Part shown: in pieces, positions 39,355 to 54,281 of the stretch
Layout of the letters: every line of letters starts with the position of its first letter
How positions within the stretch are numbered: position 1 is the first letter of the stretch
Program-made: the position numbers and the translations under genes
The notes under the pieces: generated by a model
Told to the model about the DNA's origin: nothing
The model's database searches: none
The model's input: the letters and a program-made list of their open reading frames with translations, nothing else
DNA from: Paraburkholderia megapolitana
Lineage (GTDB): Bacteria; Pseudomonadota; Gammaproteobacteria; Burkholderiales; Burkholderiaceae
NCBI RefSeq assembly: GCF_007556815.1
Contig: NZ_CP041745.1
Span: 248,001-312,000 of the forward strand
Length of the DNA: 64,000 nucleotides
Direction: 5' to 3'

Positions 39355-41352
39355 ATGAGCAACGACCTCTTCAGTACCGCCCGGATCGGGCGCTATACCC
39401 TCCGCAATCGCTTCGTGATGGCCCCGATGACACGTTCCCGCGCCGATGACGACAGCGGTGTGCCGTCAGACCTCGCCGCCGTCTATTACGGTCAGCGCGC
39501 CGATGCGGGATTGATCATCACGGAAGGCACGTACCCGTCGCCGATGGGCAAGGGCTACGTCCGCACGCCGGGCATCCACTCCGCTGCGCAGATCGATGCA
39601 TGGCGCGCGGTCACCGCGGCAGTACGCGCGAAAGGCGGCCGTATCTTTCTGCAGCTCATGCATACGGGGCGCATCTCGCATCCGGATATGCTGCCTGACG
39701 GCGCCACGCCGGTTGCGCCTTCCGCGATTCGTCCAGCCGGCCAGGTATGGACCGCATCGGGGCAGCAGGATTTCGTCACACCGCGTGCGTTGTCGACTGA
39801 AGAGGTTGCTGGTGTCGTCGATGAGTATCGGCGTGCCACACGTCACGCACTCGATGCCGGCTTCGACGGCGTCGAACTGCATGCCGCGTCCGGGTATCTG
39901 CCGGAGCAGTTCCTGTCGTCGGGCACGAATCAGCGCATGGACCAGTACGGCGGCTCGCTGGCGAATCGCGCGCGCTTCATTCTGGAGGTGCTCGCCGCGA
40001 TGACTGAAGAAGCAGGCAGCGACCGCGTCGGCATCAAGATCTCGCCGGAGATGGGCTTTAACGACATCGTCGATGCCGCGCCACAGGAGACCTATCGCTA
40101 CCTGGTGGAACAGCTTGCACCGCTCAAGCTGGCCTATCTGCACGTCGCGTGGTCGAAGAGCGGGTTCGACTATCACGGTGTGTTGCAGCCGCTGTTCGAT
40201 GGCGCTTATTTGCGCGGCGGCGCGTTGACGAAAGAGACCGCCAAGGCCACGATCGCGGAAGGGACGGCGGATGCTGTCGTGTTCGGCAGCCTGTATCTGG
40301 CGAACCCCGATCTGCCGCACCGGTTTCTCGCGGACGCTCCGCTCAACGCAGCGGACCGGAATACGTTTTACTCGCCCGGTCCTGACGGCTACATCGATTA
40401 CCCGGCACTCGACGCCGGCAACGCGACGAACCGCGCGCTTCGTATTCATGCTTATGGCGGTAGTGACGCGGTACAGATCGATCGGATTGCCGAGCCAGTT
40501 GCTGCCGCAGGCGATGTGGTCGTTCGTGTGCATGCGGCGGGCGTCAACGGTCTCGACTGGAAAGTCCGCGACGGTCTGCTGCACGGCGCGTTTCCGTTGA
40601 CGTTTCCTGTCACGCTGGGTAGCGAACTTGCCGGTGAAGTGATCGCGCTCGGCGCAGGCGTGACCGGTTTTGCGATTGGCGATCGCGTGATGGGCGCGAT
40701 GGGTGGGCTCGGTGCGTACGCAGATCGGGTCGCGATTTCTGCCGCTAACCTCACACCGACGCCAGCAGATCTGGACGACGTACACGCGGCCGCTATCCCC
40801 GTAACTGCGCTGACTGCCTGGCAGGCGTTGTTCGATGCGGGCGGATTGACGGCTGGTCAAACTGTGCTGATCCACGGTGCGGCGGGTGGTGTAGGCGGAT
40901 TCGCGGTGCAGTTCGCGCGGCGAGCCGGCGCGCGCGTGGTGGTTACTGCGCGCGGTGTGCATACCGACTATCTACGCTCGCTTGGCGCGCACGACGTGAT
41001 CGACTACCGGACTATCGCATTTCACGAACATGTCGCGGATGTGGACCTCGTGCTCGATCTCGTCGGCGGCGCGGCACTAGCCGATTCGTGGCAGGTGTTG
41101 CGTGCGGGAGGCAGGATCGTCAGCACGGCCGCGCCGGATATCCTCGCGCAGATCCCGCCCGGCAAGAACGGCGTGTGGTTCCAGATGCGCCCCGACCAGG
41201 CGCAACTCGCTGACATCGTGGCGATGGTCGCGCGAGGCGACGTGAAAGTGGATATCGCTAAGGTCGCAGAAGTAGCGGACGCCGCGGATGCCATCGAGCA
41301 GAACAAGATCGGGTACGGACGCGGCAAAGGAGTGATCCGGTTTGCGCAGTAA
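39355..41352 (+). CDS. Fusion of Old Yellow Enzyme ene-reductase and quinone-oxidoreductase (MDR) domain
   Basis: This encodes 665 aa in one uninterrupted frame. Residues 1-352 are an FMN-dependent OYE barrel: NRFVMAPMTRSR, FLQLMHTGRISHP, HAASGYLPEQFLSSGTNQR and DQYGGSLANRARF, ending PDGYIDYPALD. Residues 360-665 are a zinc-free medium-chain reductase: VVVRVHAAGVNGLDWKVRDG, GSELAGEVIALG and HGAAGGVGGFAVQFARRAGA (507-526). OYEs reduce activated alkenes with NAD(P)H. The substrate-anchoring pair, normally His-x-x-Asn or His-x-x-His, is His176-Ala-Ala-Ser179. The ribosome site is AGGAG. Probably controlled by the divergent LysR. Confidence 0.9.
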   Translation: MSNDLFSTARIGRYTLRNRFVMAPMTRSRADDDSGVPSDLAAVYYGQRADAGLIITEGTYPSPMGKGYVRTPGIHSAAQIDAWRAVTAAVRAKGGRIFLQLMHTGRISHPDMLPDGATPVAPSAIRPAGQVWTASGQQDFVTPRALSTEEVAGVVDEYRRATRHALDAGFDGVELHAASGYLPEQFLSSGTNQRMDQYGGSLANRARFILEVLAAMTEEAGSDRVGIKISPEMGFNDIVDAAPQETYRYLVEQLAPLKLAYLHVAWSKSGFDYHGVLQPLFDGAYLRGGALTKETAKATIAEGTADAVVFGSLYLANPDLPHRFLADAPLNAADRNTFYSPGPDGYIDYPALDAGNATNRALRIHAYGGSDAVQIDRIAEPVAAAGDVVVRVHAAGVNGLDWKVRDGLLHGAFPLTFPVTLGSELAGEVIALGAGVTGFAIGDRVMGAMGGLGAYADRVAISAANLTPTPADLDDVHAAAIPVTALTAWQALFDAGGLTAGQTVLIHGAAGGVGGFAVQFARRAGARVVVTARGVHTDYLRSLGAHDVIDYRTIAFHEHVADVDLVLDLVGGAALADSWQVLRAGGRIVSTAAPDILAQIPPGKNGVWFQMRPDQAQLADIVAMVARGDVKVDIAKVAEVADAADAIEQNKIGYGRGKGVIRFAQ

Positions 41353-42483: not shown

Positions 42484-43737
42484 ATGACCTCCACCAGACT
42501 GCGCGTTTTCGCGGTATTTGCGCTCGCGTACTTCGTCTCGTACCTGTACCGCGGCGTGAATCTCGGCTTCGCGCCGTTCCTGATGCACGACCTCGGTTTC
42601 TCCGCCACCGATCTCGGCACACTGACGAGCCTCTACTTCCTCGGCTTTGCCGGCGCGCAGATTCCGGCGGGCGTGCTGCTCGATCATTTCGGACCGCGCC
42701 GCGTGACCGCCTGCGTGATGCTGATCGCCGCCGTCGGTGTGCTGATCTTCGGCATCGGACACACGCTACCGACGATGATGATCGGCCGCGCCCTGATCGG
42801 CGTCGGCGTATCGGTATGCCTGGGCGGCGCGTTCAAGGCGACCGCGCAGCATTTTCCGGCGGCGCAATTGACGCTCGTCAACGGTCTCGTGATGGCGGTC
42901 GGCGGGCTGGGCGGCGTCGTGGTCGGCACGCCGCTGTCGTGGCTGCTCACCGTGGCGAGCTGGCGCACCATCTGCATCGGGCTCGCGATCTTCACGACGA
43001 TCGTCGCGGCAAACCTGTATGTGTTCGCACCGAACGTGCGCGACACGCATCGCCAGGCCGGGGTGCTCGAACAGTTCAAGGGCACGTTGCACATCCTGAA
43101 GAGTCGCGCGTTCTGGAAGCTGGCCATGTTCTCCGGGCTCACGCAGAGCGTGTTCTATGCCATGCAGTCGCTGTGGGTCGGCGCGTTTCTGCGCGATGTC
43201 GTGATGCCGGCGTCGCCGGGCAATGCGGCTGCAGGCGCCGCGTTTCTCGTGTCGGTGCTGGGGGCGGCGTTTATCGTCGGCAATGTCGGTTTCGGTGCGC
43301 TGGCTCGCACGCTCGAGCGGCGCGGCGTTAGCGTGCAGATGTTTTCCGGCCTGACGATGCTGTCGTTCGTGCTCGTGCAGGCGGCGATCGCCGCACGCGT
43401 GCCGTTGCCCGAACCGGTGTTGTGGGCCGCTTACGGTGCGCTCGGCGGCACGGGCATCCTGACCTATACGGTGCTCGCGCGGCACTTTCCGGTGCGGATG
43501 GTCGGTCGCGTCAACACGACTTTTACGCTGGTGATCTTTCTCGCGATCTTCGTGCTGCAGGTCGTGATCGGCGCGGCGCTCGGTCACTGGCCCGCGCACG
43601 ACGGTCACTATCCGCCCGTTGCGCATCAGAGCGTTTGGGCGGTGCTGATCGTGATGCAGGTGGCGTGCGCCGTGTGGTATTTCATGCCGGCGCGTGGGCT
43701 GCGGGTGACGACGCAACCTCTCGAGTCGCAGGCGTAG
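42484..43737 (+). CDS. MFS transporter
   Basis: This encodes 417 aa with 12 predicted membrane segments. The motif-A loop is GVLLDHFGPRRV (about residues 64-75). The second half starts near residue 205 (ILKSRAFWKLAMFSGLTQSV). Its opening AYFVSYLYRGVNLGFAPFLM resembles sugar-phosphate/nitrate-nitrite-type MFS members, but the substrate is not predictable. It has no adjacent enzyme on its strand; the divergent GcvA-like LysR may control it. Confidence 0.87.
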   Translation: MTSTRLRVFAVFALAYFVSYLYRGVNLGFAPFLMHDLGFSATDLGTLTSLYFLGFAGAQIPAGVLLDHFGPRRVTACVMLIAAVGVLIFGIGHTLPTMMIGRALIGVGVSVCLGGAFKATAQHFPAAQLTLVNGLVMAVGGLGGVVVGTPLSWLLTVASWRTICIGLAIFTTIVAANLYVFAPNVRDTHRQAGVLEQFKGTLHILKSRAFWKLAMFSGLTQSVFYAMQSLWVGAFLRDVVMPASPGNAAAGAAFLVSVLGAAFIVGNVGFGALARTLERRGVSVQMFSGLTMLSFVLVQAAIAARVPLPEPVLWAAYGALGGTGILTYTVLARHFPVRMVGRVNTTFTLVIFLAIFVLQVVIGAALGHWPAHDGHYPPVAHQSVWAVLIVMQVACAVWYFMPARGLRVTTQPLESQA

Positions 43738-43811
43738 CGAACCTGCATATTGACCGGCGAGCCTGAGGCGCGTCGCGTCGCGTCACGGAAAGGAAACCCA
43801 CGCACGTGCCG

Positions 43812-45275
43812 TTACGTTTCGTTCCGTCGAGCGGCGCGCGCCCACAGCAATCCGCCAAGATGCCTCCCGGGCAGCGTGAGATCGTCGTCGCGCATCTGCT
43901 CCGGCAACCCATGCCACGCGACATCCGGGTTGCGGTGATGCTGAAGGTGCAGGTTGATGTGATACGGCCAGACGAAGATCCGGCCGAGCCAGCTGACCCG
44001 CCAGGAGTAGGTCCAGTCGAGCCAACCCGGCGTCGCACCCGGGCCACCACTATGCTCTGCGAAACTGCGTAGCTTTTGCAGCAGTACGCCGATCGTGAAG
44101 AGCGGTCCGAACCACAACACGGCCAGGATGATCAACGTACGCACGGGGCATAGCCACACGAGCACTGCGCCCGCTGCGGTCCACACCAGAAGCGCCGCAA
44201 TGAGCGGCATGGTCGGTCGTGGAGCCTTACCGCCGGCTGCGCGGTAAGCACGCATCGTGCGCAACGTGTTGATAAAGAGCGCGTCGCCAAGCAGTTGCCG
44301 AACGAGCGGCACCGTGTCTAGCGGCCGGAATTGCCATAACTGATTCTGATAGAGAAAGCGGCGCTCGGGGTCGAGCGCTGTGCCGACATGCCGATGATGC
44401 GCGAGATGGAGCGGACGGTAGAACTCGACCGGCACGGTACCGGGCACGCCGATCGCCACGTTGATCAGAAAGTCGTTGAGGCTGCGGCGTCGCGTGAGGT
44501 GGTAGTGCGTGGCGTCGTGATACAGGATGAAGAGCGCGTGCTGGCGTGTCGCAATGACGACAACGGCGAGCGCATCGTACCAGCCGTTGCCGAGCAGAAG
44601 CGCGAATCGCAAGGTGACGACGATGCACAGCCATTCGAGCAGGATCATTGCCATCGAGCGCAGATTCACGCGCGAGCGCGCCAGCATGACGGTCACTGCG
44701 CCGGCCAGCAGGCCGACCGCGCAGCCCCATAATGTATCGACAAGGAAATGCTGCCCGGTCGTCAGCACGGTCGCTATCAACACGACGCTCCACACCGCGA
44801 ACACGCTAGCGATCCGCTGTCGCTGTGCCGCGAGCACGATCGTAATCGCCACCGGCAGCGCAACATGCCCGCTGGGAGACGCCGCGAGCGGCGAGTCGAT
44901 CCGGTGCAGCCACGCAAGCCATCCTGTATCGGCGGCAGGCCGCACGATCTCTGTTGGCCAGAACAGATGGAACACAAGACAGATGCCGGTTGCGAGTGCA
45001 CCGGCGAAGAACGCGGGTAGCAACCACGGACGTGCCCGGCCGAGCCAGACCAGTACGGGCATCACGAGCAGGTAGCTCAGATACAGCGGGACGGTAGCGG
45101 GCAGGATCGGCACGGCGGCATCGATCGCACTGGGCTGGATGAGGCGCACGGTGCCGAGCGCGACATGTGTGACGAGAAAGTACAGCGCGCCCGATACGCA
45201 CAGATAGGCGACGAGCCACCTCAGTGGCCTCGCCATGAGCGCGCTATCTGTGGAGCTGGACGACAGTGTCTGCAT
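43812..45275 (-). CDS. Fusion of PAP2-type phosphatase/phosphotransferase and fatty acid desaturase
   Basis: This encodes 487 aa with about 10 membrane segments. Residues 20-200 are a PAP2 domain with SPSGHVALP (His137) and GQHFLVDTLWG (His176, Asp180), the two catalytic motifs. The usual KxxxxxxRP motif is not evident, as in the PAP2_3/inositolphosphoceramide-synthase-like group. Residues 205-487 are a membrane desaturase with diiron histidine boxes HDATH (253-257), HLAHHRH (290-296) and HLQHH (443-447). It opens a cluster with two more desaturases, GH3 and Rieske genes, and is divergent from the first acyltransferase-like gene. Function is inferred as lipid modification. Confidence 0.85.
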   Translation of the reverse strand: MQTLSSSSTDSALMARPLRWLVAYLCVSGALYFLVTHVALGTVRLIQPSAIDAAVPILPATVPLYLSYLLVMPVLVWLGRARPWLLPAFFAGALATGICLVFHLFWPTEIVRPAADTGWLAWLHRIDSPLAASPSGHVALPVAITIVLAAQRQRIASVFAVWSVVLIATVLTTGQHFLVDTLWGCAVGLLAGAVTVMLARSRVNLRSMAMILLEWLCIVVTLRFALLLGNGWYDALAVVVIATRQHALFILYHDATHYHLTRRRSLNDFLINVAIGVPGTVPVEFYRPLHLAHHRHVGTALDPERRFLYQNQLWQFRPLDTVPLVRQLLGDALFINTLRTMRAYRAAGGKAPRPTMPLIAALLVWTAAGAVLVWLCPVRTLIILAVLWFGPLFTIGVLLQKLRSFAEHSGGPGATPGWLDWTYSWRVSWLGRIFVWPYHINLHLQHHRNPDVAWHGLPEQMRDDDLTLPGRHLGGLLWARAARRNET

Positions 45276-45340
45276 GGGCGGCGAATGCGCGGAACGGGTC
45301 GAGTATCATAACAACGTGTTCAGCCACGCAGAAGCCACCC

Positions 45341-46063
45341 ATGCGCCTTCGCGCTACGCCCGTCGAGTGCAGCACCTTGAGCACACATGACATCGACCGC
45401 ATGTTCATGCTCTACGCCGCTTCGTACTGCGATGCGCAGCGCGATCTGTTCGACCGCGACCTCGCGGACAAAACCCACTGCGTCGTGCTGCGCGACGACG
45501 ATTCGATTCAAGGGTTCTCGACACTCAAGCTATACACCACGACCTGGCGTGACAAGCCGCTACGCGTTGTGTTTTCCGGCGATACGATCATCGATCCGCA
45601 GCATTGGGGCAGCCAGCAACTTGCTTTCACGTGGATACGTCTTGCCGGCGAGCTCTACCGGCAATCTCCCGACGTGCCGCTTTACTGGTTTCTGATCTGC
45701 AAGGGGCATCGCACGTATCGGTATCTGCGTGCGTTTGCGTGCGACTACGCGCCGCGTGTCGACGCCGAAACGCCCGCGACTACCGCGGCATTGATGGACT
45801 ACCTTGCACGCGAGCGTTTCGGCGCCGCGTATGGCGCGGATAGCGGCGTGCTGTCGTTCGAGCGTCCGCAGGGCCGGCTTGCTCCAGAGCTGGCAGAAGT
45901 GTCGGAGGCGCATCGCCGGTTGCCGGACGTGGCGTATTTCCTCGCGCGCAATCCGCACTACGCGCGCGGCGACGAACTCGTCTGCCTGTGCGAACTCGCA
46001 CCGGCCAACCTGCGGCCGATGGCGCAGCGCCTCTTCAGCGGCGTCCAGGCCGAGCAATGCTGA
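45341..46063 (+). CDS. Acyltransferase-like (GNAT-fold) protein of unknown substrate
   Basis: This encodes 240 aa from ATG 45341. Visible elements are RDDDSIQGFSTLKLYTTTWR, VVFSGDTIIDPQHWGSQQLA and WFLICKGHRTYRYLRAFACD, which look like the core strands of a GNAT/N-acyl-transferase fold, although the classical acetyl-CoA loop is not clear. It has no membrane segment. It overlaps the following gene by 7 bp and begins the rightward arm of the desaturase/GH3 cluster. It could make an N-acyl or O-acyl lipid precursor (inference). Fold call is tentative. Confidence 0.6.
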   Translation: MRLRATPVECSTLSTHDIDRMFMLYAASYCDAQRDLFDRDLADKTHCVVLRDDDSIQGFSTLKLYTTTWRDKPLRVVFSGDTIIDPQHWGSQQLAFTWIRLAGELYRQSPDVPLYWFLICKGHRTYRYLRAFACDYAPRVDAETPATTAALMDYLARERFGAAYGADSGVLSFERPQGRLAPELAEVSEAHRRLPDVAYFLARNPHYARGDELVCLCELAPANLRPMAQRLFSGVQAEQC

Positions 46064-47184
46064 TCCGGCGCGCGCAGACCGGGGACAACCTGCGCATCCT
46101 CGACTTCCACGCACGGCATCCGATGCAGGGCGCGCTGCCGCTGCGCTTCGATCGTTCACCCGATTACTTCGCGCTGCATCGCTGTCATGCGGACGATCAC
46201 CGCACATGGATTGCAGAGGATGCGCAGGGGGACTTGAAGGGCATCGCGAGTCTGGTCGTGCGCGACGGTTATCTGGCGAAGCGTGTCGAACCGGTCGCCT
46301 ATCTCGGCGATCTGCGCGTGATGCCGGACCGGCATCTGTCGCGCAACTGGACGGACGAGGTACGCCGCCGTCTTGCCGATCTCGAACACGAGGCCGGAGT
46401 GCGATACGCGTACTGCGCGATGATCCGCGACAACCGGCTCGCTACGCAATCGCTGCTCGGCGCGCGGCGGGCGGGACGGCTTGGATTCGAACACTGGCGC
46501 GGCTACAGCAACGTGTCGGTGTATGGCCAGCGTGGGCTGCGCAGCGCACCGCGTGCCGTGCCGGGTGTGCGTGTCGTGCAGGCGCAGCCGCGTCATGCCG
46601 ATGCACTGCGTGCTTTTCTCGACGCTGAATCGATGGGTCAGCCGTTCGGCTGCGTCTTCTCCACCGATGAGTTCGCGCGCCGGCTGCAGAGCTGGCCGGA
46701 CTTCGGCATCGAATCGTTTCTGCTGGCGCTCGACGCCCATGACAATCTGCTCGGTTGCGTTGCGCCCTGGGACGCGGGGCGTATCAAGCGGATCGTGCTG
46801 GAAGGTCTGCCGCGTTCTATCGAGGCGATCCGTGTGGCGTTCAACGCGGTGGCACCGGTGTTCGGTCGTCCGCGGATCGCAGCGGCCGGGGAGGTGCTGA
46901 AGGATGTGTATCTGACGCATCTGCAGGCGCGGCAGCGCGACCCGGCGGTGTTCGCCGTGTTGCTCGATGCTGCGTGGCTGCAGGTGCGCAGCCGCTATGC
47001 GTTGATGCAACTGTGCCTGTATGACGACGATCCGCTGTGGCCGGCCGTGGCGCGCTATCGCTACACGCGTGTGCCGATGGATCTGTACACACTGTCGGGT
47101 CCGGGTGCTGCGCCGGCACTCGGCCGCGACTCAGCTGCTTGCCCGGATACCTGCATCCCCGGCTTCGAAATCTACCTCGTTTGA
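46057..47184 (+). CDS. GNAT-family acyltransferase (two-domain)
   Basis: This encodes 375 aa from ATG 46057, overlapping the previous gene by 7 bp. The N-terminal half begins LIRRAQTGDNLRILDFHARH with EPVAYLGDLRVMPDRHLSRN, a GNAT strand 4/helix 3 region. A second GNAT-like half starts near residue 170 (GVRVVQAQPRHADALRAFLD). It is probably an acyl-transfer enzyme in the lipid cluster. Its 3' end overlaps the convergent hydrolase by 54 bp. Confidence 0.72.
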   Translation: MLIRRAQTGDNLRILDFHARHPMQGALPLRFDRSPDYFALHRCHADDHRTWIAEDAQGDLKGIASLVVRDGYLAKRVEPVAYLGDLRVMPDRHLSRNWTDEVRRRLADLEHEAGVRYAYCAMIRDNRLATQSLLGARRAGRLGFEHWRGYSNVSVYGQRGLRSAPRAVPGVRVVQAQPRHADALRAFLDAESMGQPFGCVFSTDEFARRLQSWPDFGIESFLLALDAHDNLLGCVAPWDAGRIKRIVLEGLPRSIEAIRVAFNAVAPVFGRPRIAAAGEVLKDVYLTHLQARQRDPAVFAVLLDAAWLQVRSRYALMQLCLYDDDPLWPAVARYRYTRVPMDLYTLSGPGAAPALGRDSAACPDTCIPGFEIYLV

Positions 47185-48195
47185 ACGGTACGGTTCACCT
47201 GCCGATGTGGGCCGGCTCGCATGCAGCAGATCCGCGAGCGCGAGCCAGAAGCGTCCAGAGTCGAAACCGAGTCCGCCGAGCACCGGCTGACCATGATCGA
47301 GCCGCGGCAGACAGATCTGCGGCAGGCCCGCAAGCGCCTGATCTTCGAGGTAGAACTGGCCGTCGTGCGCGCAGCCGGGCCGGCGGGCGTCGAGCCGTGC
47401 GTGAAACGTATCAAAGCGCGAACTGCGCTCGATCGACCAGCTGATCGCATGCACGCTGTGCAGACCATGTGGCAGGTTCGCGAGCATCGTGGCGACGCGC
47501 GGGTCGCGCCGGCTGCTGATATCGCGTGTGCCGTCGGCGAGCCAGCGGCTGCGTAGTAACGGGCGGCCGATGCGGTCGTGCCAGGGTCTCTCTGTGCGCG
47601 GCGTTGGCGAAGTGGATGTCGTCGGGCACGTGCTGGCCGGAGTTGCTGGCGCCTGCGTCGCCGGGCTCCGGGTGCCTGGCGTTGTCGACATCGCTTCCGC
47701 CGGCCCCCAACCCAGTATCTCATCGACGACCAATGCCGGCCCGACCGGCGGCTGAACCAACGCGATGCCATCGCATCGTTCGCACAGTGCAGGGTCGGCC
47801 GCGAGCGCGGCCAGCGTATCGATACCGCCCTTGCTGTGCGTGAGCGCGATAAAACGCTGCCCGTCCGACAGATGCGCGCGCAACGTTGCGCCGATGTGCG
47901 TCGCCTGCGTCATCACGCCGCGCGACGACCGCACGGGTATCCGCAACACCCGATAGCCCGCGCCGCGCAGTGCGCGGGCTGCGTCACGGTGGCAGCGTGG
48001 CAGCCATTCCGAGTACAGCCCCGAGACGAGTACGACGACGGTGTCGCGCGGCAACCGCAGCGCAGGGCGCTCCCAGCACGCGATAAAACGCGCAGTCCAG
48101 TCGAGCTCGCCAGCCGGTTGCGCAAACGGCGTCGACGGAAAATGACGACGCCAGTCGTCGAAGCCGTGCGGTGTCCACGCGAGCGACGGCGTCAT
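47131..48195 (-). CDS. Alpha/beta hydrolase with Thr/Pro-rich insert
   Basis: This encodes 354 aa from ATG 48195. The fold begins TVVVLVSGLYSEWLPRCHRD, with the nucleophile elbow LTHSKGGIDT (Ser in THSKG). A low-complexity stretch of about 36 residues rich in Thr, Pro and Ser follows LGWGPAEA and looks like an insertion in a surface loop. The likely catalytic His is in the C-terminal PRLDHGQPVLGG. It may be an esterase/thioesterase or acyltransferase releasing a lipid product (inference). It lies antiparallel inside the cluster. Confidence 0.72.
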   Translation of the reverse strand: MTPSLAWTPHGFDDWRRHFPSTPFAQPAGELDWTARFIACWERPALRLPRDTVVVLVSGLYSEWLPRCHRDAARALRGAGYRVLRIPVRSSRGVMTQATHIGATLRAHLSDGQRFIALTHSKGGIDTLAALAADPALCERCDGIALVQPPVGPALVVDEILGWGPAEAMSTTPGTRSPATQAPATPASTCPTTSTSPTPRTERPWHDRIGRPLLRSRWLADGTRDISSRRDPRVATMLANLPHGLHSVHAISWSIERSSRFDTFHARLDARRPGCAHDGQFYLEDQALAGLPQICLPRLDHGQPVLGGLGFDSGRFWLALADLLHASRPTSAGEPYRSNEVDFEAGDAGIRASS

Positions 48196-48392
48196 GGTTC
48201 GATTGCAACTTCGGAGAAAGGCGTGGTCGGCAGGGCAGACGTTCCAGTACGTCCCGACACGCGGACGAAGAACGCCATGAAAACAGTCCCACGAGCGTTC
48301 AGCAAACGCGAAGCGACCGGGCGTCGCTGCCGATTGGATAAACCCGAGGCATCCGATGTATCCTTCGCGTACATCCCGTCTGGATCTCCTGT

Positions 48393-49331
48393 ATGCGCAC
48401 ATCGAACGAGCCGGATAGCGTCATGCGAACCGCCCGCCTCGACCTGGCCAATCTTTTCGTGCTGGTGCTGCAAAGCGCCGCATGGGCCGGCATGCTGACG
48501 TGGCTCTCGAACACCGCCGCCGGACCGCTGAAGTGGCTGGCGCTGATTCCGTTCTGCCTCATCATGCAGGGCGTGTTCTCGATGATGCACGAGTCGTTTC
48601 ATGGCTCTGCACATCGCGTCGCGTCCGTGAATTATATGATGCGGTGGTGGGCTTCCACGATGTTCGGTGCCTCCGGTACGCTGATCCATATCAACCATCT
48701 CGGGCATCACGTACGCAACCGCACGCGCTCGGAGCGCGCGGATTTCGCCACGGCGGGCGAGTCGCTAGTGCGCAAACGGATCGAATACTATGCCGCGGTG
48801 CTAGGCGGTATCTGGTTAGGCGGATTTGTCGGCAGTGTCGTGCTCGTGTTACTGCCCGCAGGCTTCGCGAACCGCTGGGCGAAGCGCGGTGAAGACAATA
48901 CCTACGCCGCGGCCTTCAAGGATTTTTCACTGCGCGATTTTCAGCGCATCCGTTTCGAAGTGATCGCGAGTGTGGCCGCGTGGCTGCTGTGCGGCTGGCT
49001 GCTGCACTGGCAATTGCATGTCGTCGCGATCGCGTATGTCGCATTCGCGTTTTCGTGGTCGTCGCTGCAGTGGGTCAATCACATGCGCGCACCGCTCGAT
49101 GTTGTCGAGGGGACCTATAACATGCGGGCCCCGCTTCTCGTGCGCTGGGCGTTCCTGAACTTCAACTACAACCTCACACACCACCGGCAGCCGCATTTGC
49201 GCTGGCAACAATTGCATATGCTGTCGAACGCACGCGAAACGCGCCCCTTGTGGTTCGGCTGGCTGCAGATTTTCGTGCCGCCGCAGCGACTGCCGGGCGA
49301 TCTCCGGCAACTCGACAAGACCTACTTCTGA
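48393..49331 (+). CDS. Membrane fatty acid desaturase
   Basis: This encodes 312 aa with four membrane segments. Histidine boxes are HESFH (66-70), HINHLGHH (99-106) and the C-terminal NLTHHRQPHLRW (HH at 263-264, His268), which bind the diiron centre. ATG 48393 is used; ATG 48423 is an alternative. Its stop overlaps the GH3 start by 1 bp (TGATG), so the two are translationally coupled. The acyl substrate and double-bond position are unknown. Confidence 0.88.
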   Translation: MRTSNEPDSVMRTARLDLANLFVLVLQSAAWAGMLTWLSNTAAGPLKWLALIPFCLIMQGVFSMMHESFHGSAHRVASVNYMMRWWASTMFGASGTLIHINHLGHHVRNRTRSERADFATAGESLVRKRIEYYAAVLGGIWLGGFVGSVVLVLLPAGFANRWAKRGEDNTYAAAFKDFSLRDFQRIRFEVIASVAAWLLCGWLLHWQLHVVAIAYVAFAFSWSSLQWVNHMRAPLDVVEGTYNMRAPLLVRWAFLNFNYNLTHHRQPHLRWQQLHMLSNARETRPLWFGWLQIFVPPQRLPGDLRQLDKTYF

Positions 49332-50929
49332 TGAACCCGCCCGTGAGCGGCACGCGCGACGCGTGGCGAACTTTTGCCGACGCGGCGGCTCCGACGCTCG
49401 CCGCGTGGCAGCGCGTGCTCGACGATCCGGCCGCGACGCAGCGGCAACGACTCGCGCAGATCCTCGACACGAATCGCGACACGGCGTTTGGCCGCGCGCA
49501 CGGCTTTGCGCAGATCGCCGACGCCGCGCAGTATCGCGAGCGCGTCTCCGTGCACAGCTATGCGGAGCTCGAACCGTGGATCGAACGGGCGCAGCGCGAC
49601 ACCCAGCCGGTGCTCACCGCGCAGCCGCCGCTGTTCTTCGAGCGCACGAGCGGCAATAGCGCGCAGCAGAAGCGGATTCCCTACACGGCTGCATTTCTCG
49701 GCGAGCTTCAGCATGCGCTGACGATCTGGCTGGCCGACCTCTACCGCCGCGTGCCGGAGATCGGCGAAGGCCGTGCCTACTGGTCGATATCGCCGCCGCT
49801 GCAGGCACCGGGCCGCGCGCCGAACGGCATCCCGATCGGTTCGGAGAGCGACTTCGCGTACCTCGACGGCAGCATCGTTGCGGGGCTCGCTGCGACGCTG
49901 ATCGTTCCGCGGCTCGCGAGCGATGCGAGCGACGACACGTCCGCGTGGCGCAGGCAGACCCTGCTTGCGCTCATCGAAGCCGCCGACCTGGCGTTCATCA
50001 GCGTATGGAGCCCGACGTTCCTGACGAGCCTGCTGCGCCCGCTGTTCGATGCCGACGATCCCACGCATCGCGACACGCTCGCATGGCTCGAAGCGGCACT
50101 GCCCGCGCCGCGCCGCGCGGCGTTACGGCATGCGCTCGAAGCGGGGTCCTGCGACGCGCTATGGCCGCGACTGGCCGCAGTGAGTTGCTGGATGGACGGA
50201 CCGAGCCGCGACTATGCAGCTACGTTGCAGGCCCGCTTTCCGCAAGCACGCTGGTTACCGAAAAGCCTGTTCGCCACCGAAGCCATAGTGAGCGTGCCGT
50301 TCGGCGATGACGAAGGGTGTCCGCTTGCGGTCGCGGGGCATTACTTCGAATGCATTTTCGATGACGGAACCGTGCGCGAAACGCACGAACTCGCACCGGG
50401 CGACATCGTGCAGATCGTCGTCACGACCGGCGGCGGCCTGTACCGCTATGCGCTCGGCGATCGCGTGCGAGTAGTCTGCATGACGGACCGTACGCCGCGT
50501 ATCGAGTTCGTTGGAAGGGTAGGTGCGCACAGCGATCTGGTCGGCGAGAAGCTCGATGAAGCCGGTGTCGCGTCGGTGCTTGCCGCATGCATCGCGGCGG
50601 GCGACAGTGCATGTCTCGTGCCGTGCGCGGCAGCGGACCCACCGCACTATGTGCTGCTCGTCGCGAGCGAGGTACCGTGCGATCGGGACGCGTTGAGTGT
50701 GGCCGTCGAAAGCGGTCTTGCGCGTTCGTTCCACTATGCGCATGCGCGCCGTTTCGCACAGTTAGGACCGGTGCGCGTGCGGCATCTCGCGGGTTCGCCT
50801 GCGCGACTTGCCGACCTGCTGCAACAGGCGGCCGAGCAGACCGGCGTCCGTGCCGGCGACGTGAAACCGCGCGCGCTCGTCAACCGCCTCGTGACCGCCG
50901 ACGCGTTGCTCGCGTTGACGCAGCGCTGA
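49331..50929 (+). CDS. GH3-family acyl-acid amido synthetase
   Basis: This encodes 532 aa. GH3 enzymes are adenylating enzymes that join a carboxylic acid to an amino acid or amine. The ATP-loop equivalent is FFERTSGNSAQQKRIPYT, followed by RWLPKSLFATEAIVSVPFG, GGLYRYALGDRVRVV and FVGRVGAHSDLVGEKLDE, which line the nucleotide site in plant GH3 proteins. Length fits the family. Start ATG overlaps the desaturase stop; the Rieske gene follows 4 bp later, so desaturase-GH3-Rieske form one operon. The acid and amine partners are unknown. Confidence 0.85.
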   Translation: MNPPVSGTRDAWRTFADAAAPTLAAWQRVLDDPAATQRQRLAQILDTNRDTAFGRAHGFAQIADAAQYRERVSVHSYAELEPWIERAQRDTQPVLTAQPPLFFERTSGNSAQQKRIPYTAAFLGELQHALTIWLADLYRRVPEIGEGRAYWSISPPLQAPGRAPNGIPIGSESDFAYLDGSIVAGLAATLIVPRLASDASDDTSAWRRQTLLALIEAADLAFISVWSPTFLTSLLRPLFDADDPTHRDTLAWLEAALPAPRRAALRHALEAGSCDALWPRLAAVSCWMDGPSRDYAATLQARFPQARWLPKSLFATEAIVSVPFGDDEGCPLAVAGHYFECIFDDGTVRETHELAPGDIVQIVVTTGGGLYRYALGDRVRVVCMTDRTPRIEFVGRVGAHSDLVGEKLDEAGVASVLAACIAAGDSACLVPCAAADPPHYVLLVASEVPCDRDALSVAVESGLARSFHYAHARRFAQLGPVRVRHLAGSPARLADLLQQAAEQTGVRAGDVKPRALVNRLVTADALLALTQR

Positions 50930-50933
50930 CATC

Positions 50934-52040
50934 ATGTCGACCGCCGAATCTCACCAAACGCCAAACGTCGTCGATCAGGCCGCCGCCGATGGTCTGCACG
51001 ACCAGTGGTTCGTCGCGTGTACTGGTAGCGAACTGCGCAACGGCAAACCGCGCGGCGTAAAAATTCTCGGGCTGGGCGTTGTCCTGTTTCGTCAGCGCAG
51101 CGGAGAAGTCGTTGCGCTGATCGACCAGTGCGTGCACCGCGGCACGCGCCTGTCGGCCGGCAAGCTCGCGGACGATTGCCTCGTGTGTCCGTATCACGGC
51201 TGGCGCTACGACGGGCAAGGGCAGGTGGTGCACATTCCGACTATCGACGGTGCACAGCCCGCTGCGACGCCCGGCGACTACCCGTTTCGCCAGCGGCGTT
51301 TGCCGGTGCGCGAGCAGGATGGCCTGATCTGGGTCTATCGCGGCGACGACAGCGCAGTGGCTGACTCCGTGCCGATCTTCCGCATGCCGTTCCATTGCGA
51401 GAAGCCGTGGCAGTCGTACTACATGGTGAACACGTTCGACGGCGATATCGGCATGCTCGCGCAGAACTTCATGGACGTGCCGCATACCGTCTTCGTCCAC
51501 GACGGCATTTTCCGTTCGAGCCGCGGCAAAGCAATGGAAGCCACGGTCGCGCTCAACGCACAGAGCGTCGAGGTGACGTATCACGACGGCTCGGACAAGA
51601 TCGGCATGATGGACTGGCTGACCAATCCGCATCACGAGCCGCTCGTGCACACCGACCGCTTCTTCGCGCCCAACGTGACGCGCTGCGACTATCGATGGGG
51701 CAGCCTGTCGGGTTTTTTGATCGTGAGCCAGATCACGCCAATCGATGCACGCTCGTCGCGCGTCTATACCTACATCGCGTACCGCTTTCCGCTGCCGCGC
51801 TGGGTGCTGCGTGCGTTGCGACCGCTGCTGCATCTGTACACGCACATCGTGATCCAGCAGGACGTACGGATCATGCGCGCGCATCGCGAGGGGCTCGACA
51901 ATGCGCCGGGATTCGAGGTGCACAACGTGCGCGCCGATGTCGTGCATGTGGGTATCGAGAGGCTGCTTGCCGCGGTGCGGCGTGGAGAGAGTCTGCCGGA
52001 GGCGCAGCGCGGCGAGAAGCCGATGCGCTTCGAGCTTTAG
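50934..52040 (+). CDS. Rieske-type non-heme iron oxygenase
   Basis: This encodes 368 aa. The [2Fe-2S] ligands are Cys66 and His68 (QCVHRG) and Cys85 and His88 (CPYHGW). The mononuclear iron site is NFMDVPHTVFVH (Asp181, His184, His189). The architecture resembles pheophorbide/choline-monooxygenase-like Rieske enzymes. It is the third gene of the desaturase-GH3 operon and would hydroxylate or otherwise oxidise the acyl intermediate (inference). No dedicated reductase is nearby. Its stop overlaps the convergent desaturase by 4 bp. Confidence 0.9.
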   Translation: MSTAESHQTPNVVDQAAADGLHDQWFVACTGSELRNGKPRGVKILGLGVVLFRQRSGEVVALIDQCVHRGTRLSAGKLADDCLVCPYHGWRYDGQGQVVHIPTIDGAQPAATPGDYPFRQRRLPVREQDGLIWVYRGDDSAVADSVPIFRMPFHCEKPWQSYYMVNTFDGDIGMLAQNFMDVPHTVFVHDGIFRSSRGKAMEATVALNAQSVEVTYHDGSDKIGMMDWLTNPHHEPLVHTDRFFAPNVTRCDYRWGSLSGFLIVSQITPIDARSSRVYTYIAYRFPLPRWVLRALRPLLHLYTHIVIQQDVRIMRAHREGLDNAPGFEVHNVRADVVHVGIERLLAAVRRGESLPEAQRGEKPMRFEL

Positions 52041-52993
52041 GCGGGGTGGTTGCTGGATGTGGCGGGGTTGGCCCGGTCGCGCGCCGCGGCCTGCAACCGA
52101 TCGAGCAGGAAGCGATGCACAGCCGGCAGATGTTCGAGCGCGAGCGCCGGGTACACATGGTGCACCTGATGAAAGCCGATATTGCGCGGGAACAGGATCA
52201 GTTTGCCGGCCCAGCCGTAGTGCCACGTATGGGTCATGGCCCAGACCGCTTCCTGCGTGCGTTCGCCCGATTCGACGTGATCGTGTTCGATCAGCACGCG
52301 GTTCGCGTTCATGATGCCGCCGACGATCCACGGCAAGCCGTAATACGTAAAGAACGGCAGATGCCAGACCAGCACTGCGGCGATCGCGAGCAGATAGGCG
52401 GCGCAGTGCGGCAGGTCGGCGCGGATGCACGCAAGGACCTCGGGATGACGGCGCAGATCGTGCTTCGAGCGGTCCTGCATGAAGCCGCGTGCGTACCACG
52501 GACGAAAGGCCGGCCAGACCAGAGCGAGCGGCGCCATCAGCGCGCGTAGCGGCCACCAGATCGGCAGCAGCGCACCGCGTACCATCATCGCGCGTTTGAC
52601 CCAGCCGCCGTGGGCGGCGAGCCGATGCAGATAGGGATCTTCAGGGGTGCATACCGCACGGTGATGGCGCAGGTGGTGATAGCGCATCGCGGCAACCGTC
52701 GAACCGATCGGCCAGCCCGCCAGCGCCTCGACGACAACGAGCGGGAACGTGCGGCGGCGCGACGGCAGATGGCATGCGTCATGCAGGATCACGCCGAGCG
52801 CCTGCAGCCGTCCCGCGATCAGCAGCACGCCCGCGACATAGACGAGCGGATGCGCGAAGCGGCTCATCGCGATCCAGCACGCGACAATGACGAGCCAGTC
52901 GACGCACGCATAGCGGACCAGTCGCCACGGCCTGGCCGGAGCGGTGAACGGGAGCATCAGCCTGAGTTCGGCCGGTGTCGGGAAGGTGGACAT
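52037..52993 (-). CDS. Membrane fatty acid desaturase
   Basis: This encodes 318 aa from ATG 52993; the upstream ATG at 53053 is not supported. Histidine boxes are HDACH (71-75), HHLRHH (106-111) and HQVHH (275-279). Several membrane segments are present. It is convergent with the Rieske gene and closes the cluster. It is distinct from the two other desaturases here by box wording, so the three are not recent duplicates. Fatty acyl or related lipid substrate is inferred. Confidence 0.88.
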   Translation of the reverse strand: MSTFPTPAELRLMLPFTAPARPWRLVRYACVDWLVIVACWIAMSRFAHPLVYVAGVLLIAGRLQALGVILHDACHLPSRRRTFPLVVVEALAGWPIGSTVAAMRYHHLRHHRAVCTPEDPYLHRLAAHGGWVKRAMMVRGALLPIWWPLRALMAPLALVWPAFRPWYARGFMQDRSKHDLRRHPEVLACIRADLPHCAAYLLAIAAVLVWHLPFFTYYGLPWIVGGIMNANRVLIEHDHVESGERTQEAVWAMTHTWHYGWAGKLILFPRNIGFHQVHHVYPALALEHLPAVHRFLLDRLQAAARDRANPATSSNHPA

Positions 52994-53116
52994 GACGGGC
53001 GATGGCGGTGGAACGGCGCGATGGCGCGCAGAGCGTAGTGGGTCGACGCGCACATGGTAGCCGAGGTCGTTACTGTCCGCTTGGTTGAATGGCGGTGACC
53101 CGTCTGGGTGCCGCGT

Positions 53117-53506
53117 TCAGAATGAGCATCTGCTTCGATACGCGTCGACCTTGCTTGTATGGCAAGCAGGTTGTCCGAATTCTCGAACCAGTCCTTCGAC
53201 GTTGGGCGCGACGACGCGTAACGCGATGTCGCCGATCAAGCCCGCACACACGAGTAGTGCGAAGAAGCGGCGGCTGCCGCGAAGATAGCGCCATGCGAGC
53301 CATCCCGCGACGAAACAGCACAACAGCGGTATGGCGACCAACGCCCAACCCTGCAGTCCATAGTCCGCGAGGAGTTCTCTCGCCAGGTCGTCGGCGTAGA
53401 CGATCAGACCGACTCCCATACGGGCGAAGATAACCACGATCACGATGGCGATGACAATCCAGGCGATGATGCTGACGATATTTCTCGGTGTGATGTCCTC
53501 TTTCAT
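53117..53506 (-). CDS. Small membrane protein of unknown function
   Basis: This encodes 129 aa from ATG 53506. Three hydrophobic stretches are visible (IVSIIAWIVIAIVIVVIFAR, GWALVAIPLLCCFVAGWLAW, FFALLVCAGLIGDIALRV). It has no recognised motif. It lies alone between the lipid cluster and a GNAT gene. The longer frame to 53794 is rejected because it would cover the divergent GNAT start. Confidence 0.65.
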   Translation of the reverse strand: MKEDITPRNIVSIIAWIVIAIVIVVIFARMGVGLIVYADDLARELLADYGLQGWALVAIPLLCCFVAGWLAWRYLRGSRRFFALLVCAGLIGDIALRVVAPNVEGLVREFGQPACHTSKVDAYRSRCSF

Positions 53507-53714
53507 ACACTCGTCGAATTGATGGAACGGGATGGAGACAGTCGGATGAGGGCAATGATGGACATGCGGCCCATGATTGTCGTAGCGTACTACGCTGGCG
53601 TACAACGGGTAGCCACACGCAAATGCTATCCTGCGCTCCCGCAGCAGACGCTGCGCATATTTTTTCAGCGCCTTTCTAAGGCATCTTTTCCGGCATCCGA
53701 CGCCGCTTGAATTC

Positions 53715-54281
53715 ATGACCCGTGCTTCTCTCACACCACCTTCTTTCACTCTCCGCGAACTGCAACGCGAGGAACTGGTGCGGGTCTGGACCATCGATCG
53801 CAGCGAGGTGATCCACCATCTGTACCGTTTGAAAGACGGGCGGCTGGAACGTTACCCCGAGTTCTACGACATGCACGGCTGGCCCGAAGGCGAGGCGGAG
53901 CATTACACGCCGATACTGCTCGATTGCTGCGACCGTGGTGGGTGGTGCGCGGGTCTTTTCGATGGCGAGCGGCTGATTGGCGCGACGATCATCGATAGTC
54001 GGCGGCTCGGTGCGAACGCAGACATGCTGCAACTGAAGTTCCTGCACGTGAGCTGCGCGTATCGCGGCCGCGGCGCGGGCATGCAGTTGTATCGCGCGGC
54101 ACAGGCGCATGCGGCACAGGTCGGCGCGCGGCGCCTCTACGTGTCGGCGACGCCTTCCGTGAGCACGATAGATTTCTATCTGCGCCTCGGCTTCGTGGTG
54201 AGCCAGCAGCCGGACTCACAGCTGTTCGCGCTGGAGCCCGAAGACATCCACATGGAAGGCCCGTCGCTCACACCGTGTTGA
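53715..54281 (+). CDS. GNAT-family N-acetyltransferase
   Basis: This encodes 188 aa. The acetyl-CoA loop is seen as LHVSCAYRGRGAGMQLYRAA (R-G-x-G-x), followed by GARRLYVSATPSVSTIDFYL and FYLRLGFVV. The target is unknown. Its C-terminal end overlaps the convergent SDR by 14 bp. Confidence 0.88.
   Translation: MTRASLTPPSFTLRELQREELVRVWTIDRSEVIHHLYRLKDGRLERYPEFYDMHGWPEGEAEHYTPILLDCCDRGGWCAGLFDGERLIGATIIDSRRLGANADMLQLKFLHVSCAYRGRGAGMQLYRAAQAHAAQVGARRLYVSATPSVSTIDFYLRLGFVVSQQPDSQLFALEPEDIHMEGPSLTPC

Follow-up and report, generated by a model that had tools for sequence, protein, structure and literature searches.

A horizontally acquired GH3-GNAT gene island in Paraburkholderia megapolitana and its proposed role in carrier-free amide synthesis

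What might be made by a group of genes that combines a GH3 ligase and a Rieske oxygenase with three desaturase-family enzymes and two GNAT-like proteins? The question is raised by eight contiguous genes, lettered A to H from left to right, at positions 43812-52993 of a 64,000-nucleotide stretch of the Paraburkholderia megapolitana genome (positions 248001-312000 of contig 3; 7.63 Mb, three contigs), the whole of which we refer to as the window. A previous sequence-only reading had described these genes as a lipid-type cluster joined by tight or overlapping junctions. We find that they constitute a complete or nearly complete biosynthetic unit that was horizontally acquired, and consider the chances evenly balanced that GH3-mediated amide formation, GNAT acylation and oxidative tailoring yield an oxygenated, amide-linked amphiphile resembling an amino-lipid. 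The island and its genes, with lengths in amino acids (aa) and the basis of each assignment, are:

43738..53161, no strand: acquired island, 9,424 bp, absent by blastn from two genomes of the genus (G379 and G402)
43812..45275, minus strand: A, PAP2-like domain fused to a membrane di-iron desaturase, 487 aa (Pfam and conserved histidines)
45341..46063, plus strand: B (GNAT1), small GNAT-like protein and regular partner of the GH3 clade, 240 aa (profiles of other members)
46057..47184, plus strand: C (GNAT2), GNAT-like protein, 375 aa (profiles of other members)
47131..48195, minus strand: D, alpha/beta-hydrolase-like protein with a conserved HSKGG-type motif, hydrolase or acyltransferase, 354 aa (weak PDB match and motif)
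48393..49331, plus strand: E, membrane di-iron desaturase-family enzyme, 312 aa (FA_desaturase and histidine boxes)
49331..50929, plus strand: F, GH3 acyl-acid amido synthetase-like ligase, 532 aa (GH3 domains and plant GH3 structure profiles)
50934..52040, plus strand: G, Rieske non-heme iron oxygenase of the VanA/DdmC type, 368 aa (Rieske and VanA_C)
52037..52993, minus strand: H, accessory membrane di-iron desaturase-family enzyme, 318 aa (FA_desaturase)

All eight open reading frames (ORFs) are open at the positions originally proposed, and the junctions were confirmed on the sequence: B and C overlap by 7 bp, the TGATG at 49329-49333 serves as both stop of E and start of F, placing the GH3 gene at 49331-50929, and F is separated from G by 4 bp (50930-50933). 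The genes are indeed packed, but their strands alternate, A(-) B(+) C(+) D(-) E(+) F(+) G(+) H(-), giving five transcription units (A / B-C / D / E-F-G / H) and excluding a single operon. Two pairs of genes have divergent starts (A/B and D/E) and two have convergent, overlapping ends (C/D by 54 bp and G/H by 4 bp). A start for D at 48195 is more likely on sequence comparison than one at 48402, because related ORFs in three other loci (L007, L011 and L031) begin near that point.

The association of these genes is not due to chance, because 26 of 75 loci collected with GH3 as bait (GH3 alignment A1, one genome per species) have A to G arranged and oriented as in the window, the neighbouring genes being detected with window proteins as tblastn queries. 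Co-occurrence of the families, on which the sequence-only reading had staked its case beforehand, is strong. A 27th locus, from a gammaproteobacterial metagenome-assembled genome (L031, 38-54% identity), is without E only, its A-type match spanning the desaturase part alone, so that A, B, C, D, F and G share the window's arrangement in 27/75 loci. The 27 carriers comprise Cupriavidus basilensis, several Burkholderia, Paraburkholderia, Robbsia andropogonis, 11 Pseudomonas records and the metagenome-assembled genome. H is present in 11 of these clusters, and was not seen in the sequence available for the 11 Pseudomonas loci and four Burkholderia loci. A gene labelled PF10118 “metal-dependent hydrolase” (type L008:8018-8896, the label coming from a Pfam run on the L008 protein alone) lies between D and E in 22 of the 27 clusters, and in Pseudomonas kilonensis (L011) a 4HBT thioesterase gene is found directly 3' of the Rieske gene. 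The remaining 48 of the 75 loci, some of which are cut by contig ends, gave no D match, and D is for this reason not considered a core partner. In Cupriavidus basilensis OR16, GNAT2 is present in two overlapping pieces (L006:5426-6537), perhaps reflecting a frameshift.

Within the window's genus the cluster is rare. A GH3 match was obtained in 7 of 144 genomes (window's included), one of which is a 53-residue fragment, and the cluster is carried by 5 of the 143 other genomes. The island flanks were sought in 141 genomes of the genus, and in two of them the flanks lie near each other on a single contig and the island is missing. For G379, the nearest relative found, which has no GH3 match, blastn homology to the window stops at 43737 and starts again at 53162, these points being 151 bp apart in G379, and the flanks are 93% and 90% identical to those of the window; in G402 the homology edges fall at 43705 and 53712 with 127 bp between. 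The island has a G+C content of 65.0% compared to 61.6% for the rest of the window, and no transposase or integrase was found among its genes using Pfam. Its edges coincide with those of the conserved block, because the flanking MFS protein and the proteins of 53117-53794 and 53715-54281 have no match of at least 45 bits among the matches listed for other loci. When ten loci were compared with one another and with the window, most carriers had different flanks; of the eight flank pairs that matched, three are within the related pairs L111/L112 and L114/L115, and the other five match the left flank of one carrier to the right flank of another, including L114 to the window's left flank.

A quick tree, built without bootstrapping on the concatenated sequences of six proteins from 29 loci and the window, has L031 as a long branch. 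In it the window is placed with Cupriavidus and two further genomes from the window's genus (Shimodaira-Hasegawa-like approximate likelihood ratio test, SH-aLRT, 95). Other Paraburkholderia group with Robbsia (94) and with one Burkholderia group (100), and Burkholderia is split into two separate groups. Before tree construction four of the 33 full clusters were dropped, L113, L114 and L115 (taken as duplicates of L023, L027 and L025 because their contigs are equally long) and L002, as were the partial clusters L001 and L003. The empty site, flank differences, G+C content and tree groupings all fit horizontal spread. These comparisons suggest that 43738-53161 was gained by the window's lineage, repeated loss elsewhere being less likely because few relatives carry the island.

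Family scores and conserved residues provide the basis for a proposed pathway. F is the sole recognisable ATP-dependent coupling enzyme among the island proteins and belongs to a group of enzymes known chiefly as plant hormone ligases. It exceeds the domain cut-offs of the GH3 superfamily (PF03321/PF23571/PF23572) with 133.2 bits for GH3 and 46.5 bits for GH3_M (cut-off 23.6 for each), and GH3_C reaches 21.0 bits, under its cut-off of 23.6. The previous designation of F as “PF13450-like” was incorrect, as the GH3 families are PF03321/PF23571 and PF13450 is NAD_binding_8. Like the plant acyl-acid amido synthetases (JAR1, GH3.12 and others), F matches solved plant GH3 structures by profile (E 2e-25) and retains G108, K114, T316, E317, R372 and D377, which we take to be nucleotide-binding motif positions, in at least 95% of 71 aligned rows; unlike them, it is a bacterial protein encoded within a gene cluster. 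A, E and H all belong to the membrane di-iron desaturase family (PF00487) by score (FA_desaturase 96.5, 80.9 and 101.1 bits, respectively, H being scored on ORF 52037-53053) and by histidine boxes, “desaturase” being used here as the name of that family with no substrate type implied. The boxes of A (H253/H257, H290/H293/H294, H443/H446/H447), together with its PAP2 residue H176, are kept in at least 95% of 33 rows, those of E (H66/H70, H102/H105/H106, H263/H264) in at least 95% of 30 rows, and those of H in at least 95% of 23 rows. G scores 86.4 bits for Rieske and 36.7 bits for VanA_C, its nearest PDB relative being DdmC (E 9e-26) followed by SxtDIOX and SxtT. It carries the ligand residues of a Rieske oxygenase, with C66/H68/C85/H88, presumably the Rieske cluster ligands, and D181/H184/H189/D335, presumably the mononuclear iron ligands, kept in at least 95% of 36 rows.

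No family was assigned to B, C or D in Pfam or NCBIfam. The earlier description of B and C as a GNAT pair consequently finds no Pfam family in the window proteins themselves, and is indicated weakly by other family members and by a match between the GNAT1 and GNAT2 profiles (E 5e-6, probability 86%), which suggest that both are GNAT-like. Among GNAT2 members, Acetyltransf_1 was matched in 8 of 26 (best 1e-5) and Acetyltransf_9 in 7 of 26, at E values up to 0.5, and PDB profile searches with GNAT1 and GNAT2 returned nothing usable (best E 1.2 and 0.16). The best PDB match of D is a weak one to carboxylesterase MGS0156 (E 0.038), and its H120-S121-K122-G123 motif is invariant across 10 aligned rows. 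D also has an insert of ~31 residues (47587-47679) rich in T, P, S and A without counterpart in nine aligned relatives. As had been noted, acyl carrier protein (ACP), polyketide synthase (PKS), nonribosomal peptide synthetase (NRPS) and fatty acyl-AMP ligase domains were not found in the island proteins, nor were they in ten tested ORFs, a subset of those flanking it.

In the proposed pathway, F would activate a carboxylic acid with ATP and join it to an amine to produce an amide, by analogy to OlsH of Singulisphaera acidiphila, which forms N-acyl ornithine in an ATP-dependent reaction before the alpha/beta-hydrolase OlsI adds the O-acyl group (PMC12493201). Further acylation, or preparation of the amine or the acid to be joined, could fall to B and C. 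A phosphate on a membrane-bound intermediate could be removed or moved by the PAP2 domain of A, and an ester cleaved or transferred by D. The desaturase part of A, along with E, H and the Rieske protein G, would dehydrogenate or hydroxylate the product. A lipid-like substrate is favoured because of the membrane-enzyme family of A, E and H and their link to PAP2. The “lipid-type” product of the sequence-only reading is plausible, mainly by analogy from the PAP2-desaturase link and OlsH, and its view of the genes as one conserved unit stands; its more specific product, a polyunsaturated hydroxylated fatty-acyl amide or phospholipid conjugate, was conjectural.

GNAT1 and GH3 are also linked outside the full clusters. 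With the window protein alone as tblastn query, GNAT1 was detected in 67 of the 75 GH3-bait loci; GNAT2 was found in 62/75, the counts for GNAT2 and D being partly in-sample as profiles A2 and A3 were built partly from loci later counted. When GNAT1 was used as an independent bait on 321 genomes of the class, nine matched (window's included), and all nine are among the 17 with GH3 in a sample of 321 comprising, as far as listed, the same genomes. The nine GNAT1 genomes are exactly those nine with a GH3 match of E <1e-50, the other eight scoring 1.7e-27 or worse and being without GNAT1. The probability of this coincidence at random is ~1e-17, a value that is indicative only given relatedness and the post hoc threshold, and some of the class genomes may also be rows of alignments A1 or A2. 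GH3 adjoins GNAT1 in six of the eight non-window GNAT1 genomes. The other two have GH3 on another contig, both genes being located at contig starts in one of them (G225). The second (G359) has GNAT1 followed by two radical SAM-type (B12-type) genes, a weakly AurF-like gene and a desaturase (L103:9156-15269).

Three tailoring styles are found among GNAT1-GH3 loci, and these kits overlap rather than exclude each other. The first, Rieske plus desaturases, is that of Burkholderia and Pseudomonas, in which none of the 27 clusters matches the radical SAM pair. The second is represented by 18 of 58 other loci with two separate B12-type radical SAM genes, including the acidobacterial query locus L069, whose genes are matched at 36-87% identity in the other loci. 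Twenty of the 58 loci matched both queries, of which L063 and L108 were discounted as both matches fell on one gene; L105 has one weak match. The gene order in L069 is radical SAM, radical SAM, GNAT2, GNAT1, A-like, GH3, with an H-type desaturase on the opposite strand and an A-like protein that shares 26% identity with A over 89% of its length. Several radical SAM loci also retain a desaturase, Rieske or PAP2-type match, and a mobilizable IncF plasmid of Citrobacter portucalensis (source Larus michahellis) encodes GNAT1, GH3, GNAT2, five radical SAM proteins, PAP2 and a desaturase (L128:11220-23315). The third style, in Acinetobacter and Alkanindiges, consists of GNAT1, GH3 and GNAT2 with few other recognisable parts. 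A locus from an Acinetobacter record (L129:1320-8990) has genes named hlyD, emrB and TolC-like flanking or interrupting this trio, which suggests that its product is exported.

Other loci vary these themes. In a member of the Bdellovibrionaceae (L059:4618-14755), an SDR protein and a fatty acid hydroxylase lie around GH3 and GNAT1, along with three matches of Rieske type and a pair of proteins that resemble AurF weakly, below the cut-off. PAP2 and desaturase, which are one protein (A) in the window, are separate neighbouring genes in the Citrobacter plasmid and in L107 of the same class as the window, whose stand-alone PAP2 protein (L107:42-692) exceeds the Pfam cut-off at 38.8 bits. We tentatively propose, at somewhat below an even chance, that GNAT1 and GH3, in most cases joined by GNAT2, form the heart of an extensive class of carrier-free pathways that has so far escaped recognition and whose product is amide-linked and probably membrane-associated. 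This class would range from Proteobacteria to Acidobacteria, Planctomycetes, Verrucomicrobia and Bdellovibrio relatives and use an interchangeable oxidation kit in each lineage (Rieske and di-iron enzymes, a B12-radical-SAM pair, or AurF-like di-iron proteins), with the Burkholderia/Pseudomonas version moving as a ready-made cassette. Two loci have ~905-aa proteins adjoining GNAT2 (L104:12768-15503 and L106:7017-9728), that of L104 combining an RnfD-like membrane part with FG-GAP repeats and an ASPIC/UnbV domain. The contig of L129 is filed as an Acinetobacter phage, a label that looks doubtful.

A number of observations weigh against the proposed amphiphile pathway or its GNAT1-GH3 core. F is distant from OlsH, scoring 44.3 bits on the OlsH model NF052613 against an equivalog cut-off of 620. 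The PAP2 matches of A fall slightly below their Pfam cut-offs (PAP2_3 26.5 bits, cut-off 27; PAP2 26.1 bits, cut-off 27.2), and the assignment of B is weak, 3 of the 41 GNAT1 members matching Acetyltransf_9 with E values of up to 0.5 (best 1e-4). No Rieske reductase was found among the island proteins with Pfam. The window lacks a PF10118-type gene in its D-E slot, and the five PF10118 matches elsewhere in its genome share 30-41% identity with the L008 type versus 55-82% between the clusters compared; without this gene the window cluster may make a variant product or need help in trans. Using tblastn, GNAT1 was unseen in 8 of the 75 GH3-bait loci (L034, L070, L071, L073, L076, L077, L079 and L080), several of which begin or end near the GH3 match or hold weak GH3 relatives, and GNAT2 was not found in three Bdellovibrio-type loci (L049, L059 and L066). 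The adjacency of GNAT1 and GH3 is not universal, as in G359 GNAT1 lies mid-contig with GH3 on a different contig. The E <1e-50 threshold for GH3 was picked after the scores had been seen, and without it the result is that 9/9 GNAT1 genomes fall within the 17. We know of no product or activity for any relative of the cluster. Lastly, the substrate of A, E and H could be a small molecule, for instance an amino acid.

This last point underlies the best of the alternatives, that the island makes a polar, non-lipid small molecule such as a modified amino acid, polyamine or alkaloid, which we consider unlikely but a serious contender. The desaturase-family enzymes would hydroxylate or dehydrogenate an amino-acid part, the Rieske enzyme would act on a nitrogen-rich scaffold, and GH3 would couple small acids and amines. 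Consistent with such a product, A and H have weak matches to the arginine hydroxylase GntB model (69.9 and 32.6 bits, cut-off 380), the nearest solved relatives of G are DdmC, SxtDIOX and SxtT, and export-type genes accompany GNAT1-GH3-GNAT2 in the Acinetobacter record. There is also a precedent in AfcC, a putative desaturase of the AFC-BC11 pathway once taken to act on a fatty chain and found to dehydrogenate lysine (PMC12186527). However, a PAP2-like domain fused to or beside the desaturase points to a membrane substrate, and the bacterial GH3 precedent OlsH is a lipid enzyme (PMC12493201).

It is improbable that the island is instead a remote OlsH/OlsI ornithine-lipid pathway, in which GH3 would make an N-acyl amino acid and D would be the O-acyltransferase. 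OlsH (GH3) and OlsI (alpha/beta-hydrolase) reconstitute ornithine-lipid synthesis in E. coli cell-free extract, and homologues of OlsH outside the planctomycetes may, according to the authors, use other amino acids (PMC12493201). The window cluster likewise places a GH3-fold ATP-dependent ligase, with likely amide formation, near an alpha/beta-hydrolase-type gene. It differs in having two GNAT-like proteins, a Rieske protein, desaturases and PAP2, and no OlsG-type methyltransferase domain was found among its proteins with Pfam, whereas the published operon comprises OlsH, OlsG and OlsI only, and the terms “desaturase” and “gene cluster” do not occur in the main text of that report (PMC12493201). 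D matches no Pfam or NCBIfam family and is undetected in the 48 loci noted above, and the identification of F as OlsH itself was rejected on its score.

Less probable still is a detoxification or catabolic set in which the Rieske enzyme demethylates, and GH3 conjugates, an aromatic acid or a plant compound resembling auxin. The dicamba demethylase is the nearest solved relative of G, the structure names of the plant GH3 enzymes found by profile indicate conjugation of auxin, jasmonate or benzoates, and the distribution of the island is accessory and horizontally spread. Against this, two GNAT-like proteins, three membrane di-iron enzymes and a PAP2 domain would be unexpected, Pfam revealed no ring-cleavage or uptake gene among the island proteins, and relatives with B12-radical SAM genes look biosynthetic. 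The mixed strands and lack of a single operon would suit chance neighbours without a common task, but the order conserved in Burkholderiaceae and Pseudomonas, the joint absence at the empty site and the differing flanks make this negligible.

Two other kinds of known cluster are partly similar. Bacterial polyyne clusters (caryoynencin, cepacin) likewise have several desaturases with a hydrolase or thioesterase, but they hold a fatty acyl-AMP ligase and an acyl carrier protein, neither of which was found among the island proteins, in line with the earlier statement that the genes do not match known polyyne clusters. The AFC-BC11 cluster is, like the island, found in Burkholderia and has a membrane desaturase-family enzyme with acyl tailoring, but it includes a carrier protein, an adenylation domain and a fatty acyl-AMP ligase, and GH3 and Rieske are unmentioned in the main text (PMC12186527). 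Identity of the island with the afc cluster was rejected on this different gene set (PMC12186527). A Pseudomonas syringae pv. actinidiae paper containing both “Rieske” and “fatty acid desaturase” concerns, in the parts bearing on these terms, unrelated regions (a sugar region and the phaseolotoxin cluster; PMC3223175). No description of the cluster was found in open-access papers by word search, mostly at title and abstract level, which does not prove its absence from print.

We regard the cluster as a probable variation on known GH3-dependent amide synthesis, and there is a fair likelihood that it stands for a broad, unrecognised class of pathways. If our reading is right, clusters in Burkholderia, Paraburkholderia, Cupriavidus, Pseudomonas, a Citrobacter plasmid and several uncultured lineages make a compound undescribed in the open-access papers searched, by a route needing no carrier proteins in the cluster. 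Without PKS, NRPS or ACP, such clusters may escape standard cluster finders, and GNAT1 and GNAT2 would offer a defined partner set for asking about the roles of other bacterial GH3 enzymes. Elsewhere in the window, a 665-aa protein encoded at 39355-41352 on the plus strand joins an NADH:flavin oxidoreductase domain of the old yellow enzyme type (Oxidored_FMN) with a zinc-type alcohol dehydrogenase domain (ADH_N and ADH_zinc_N), and looks like an unusual fusion.

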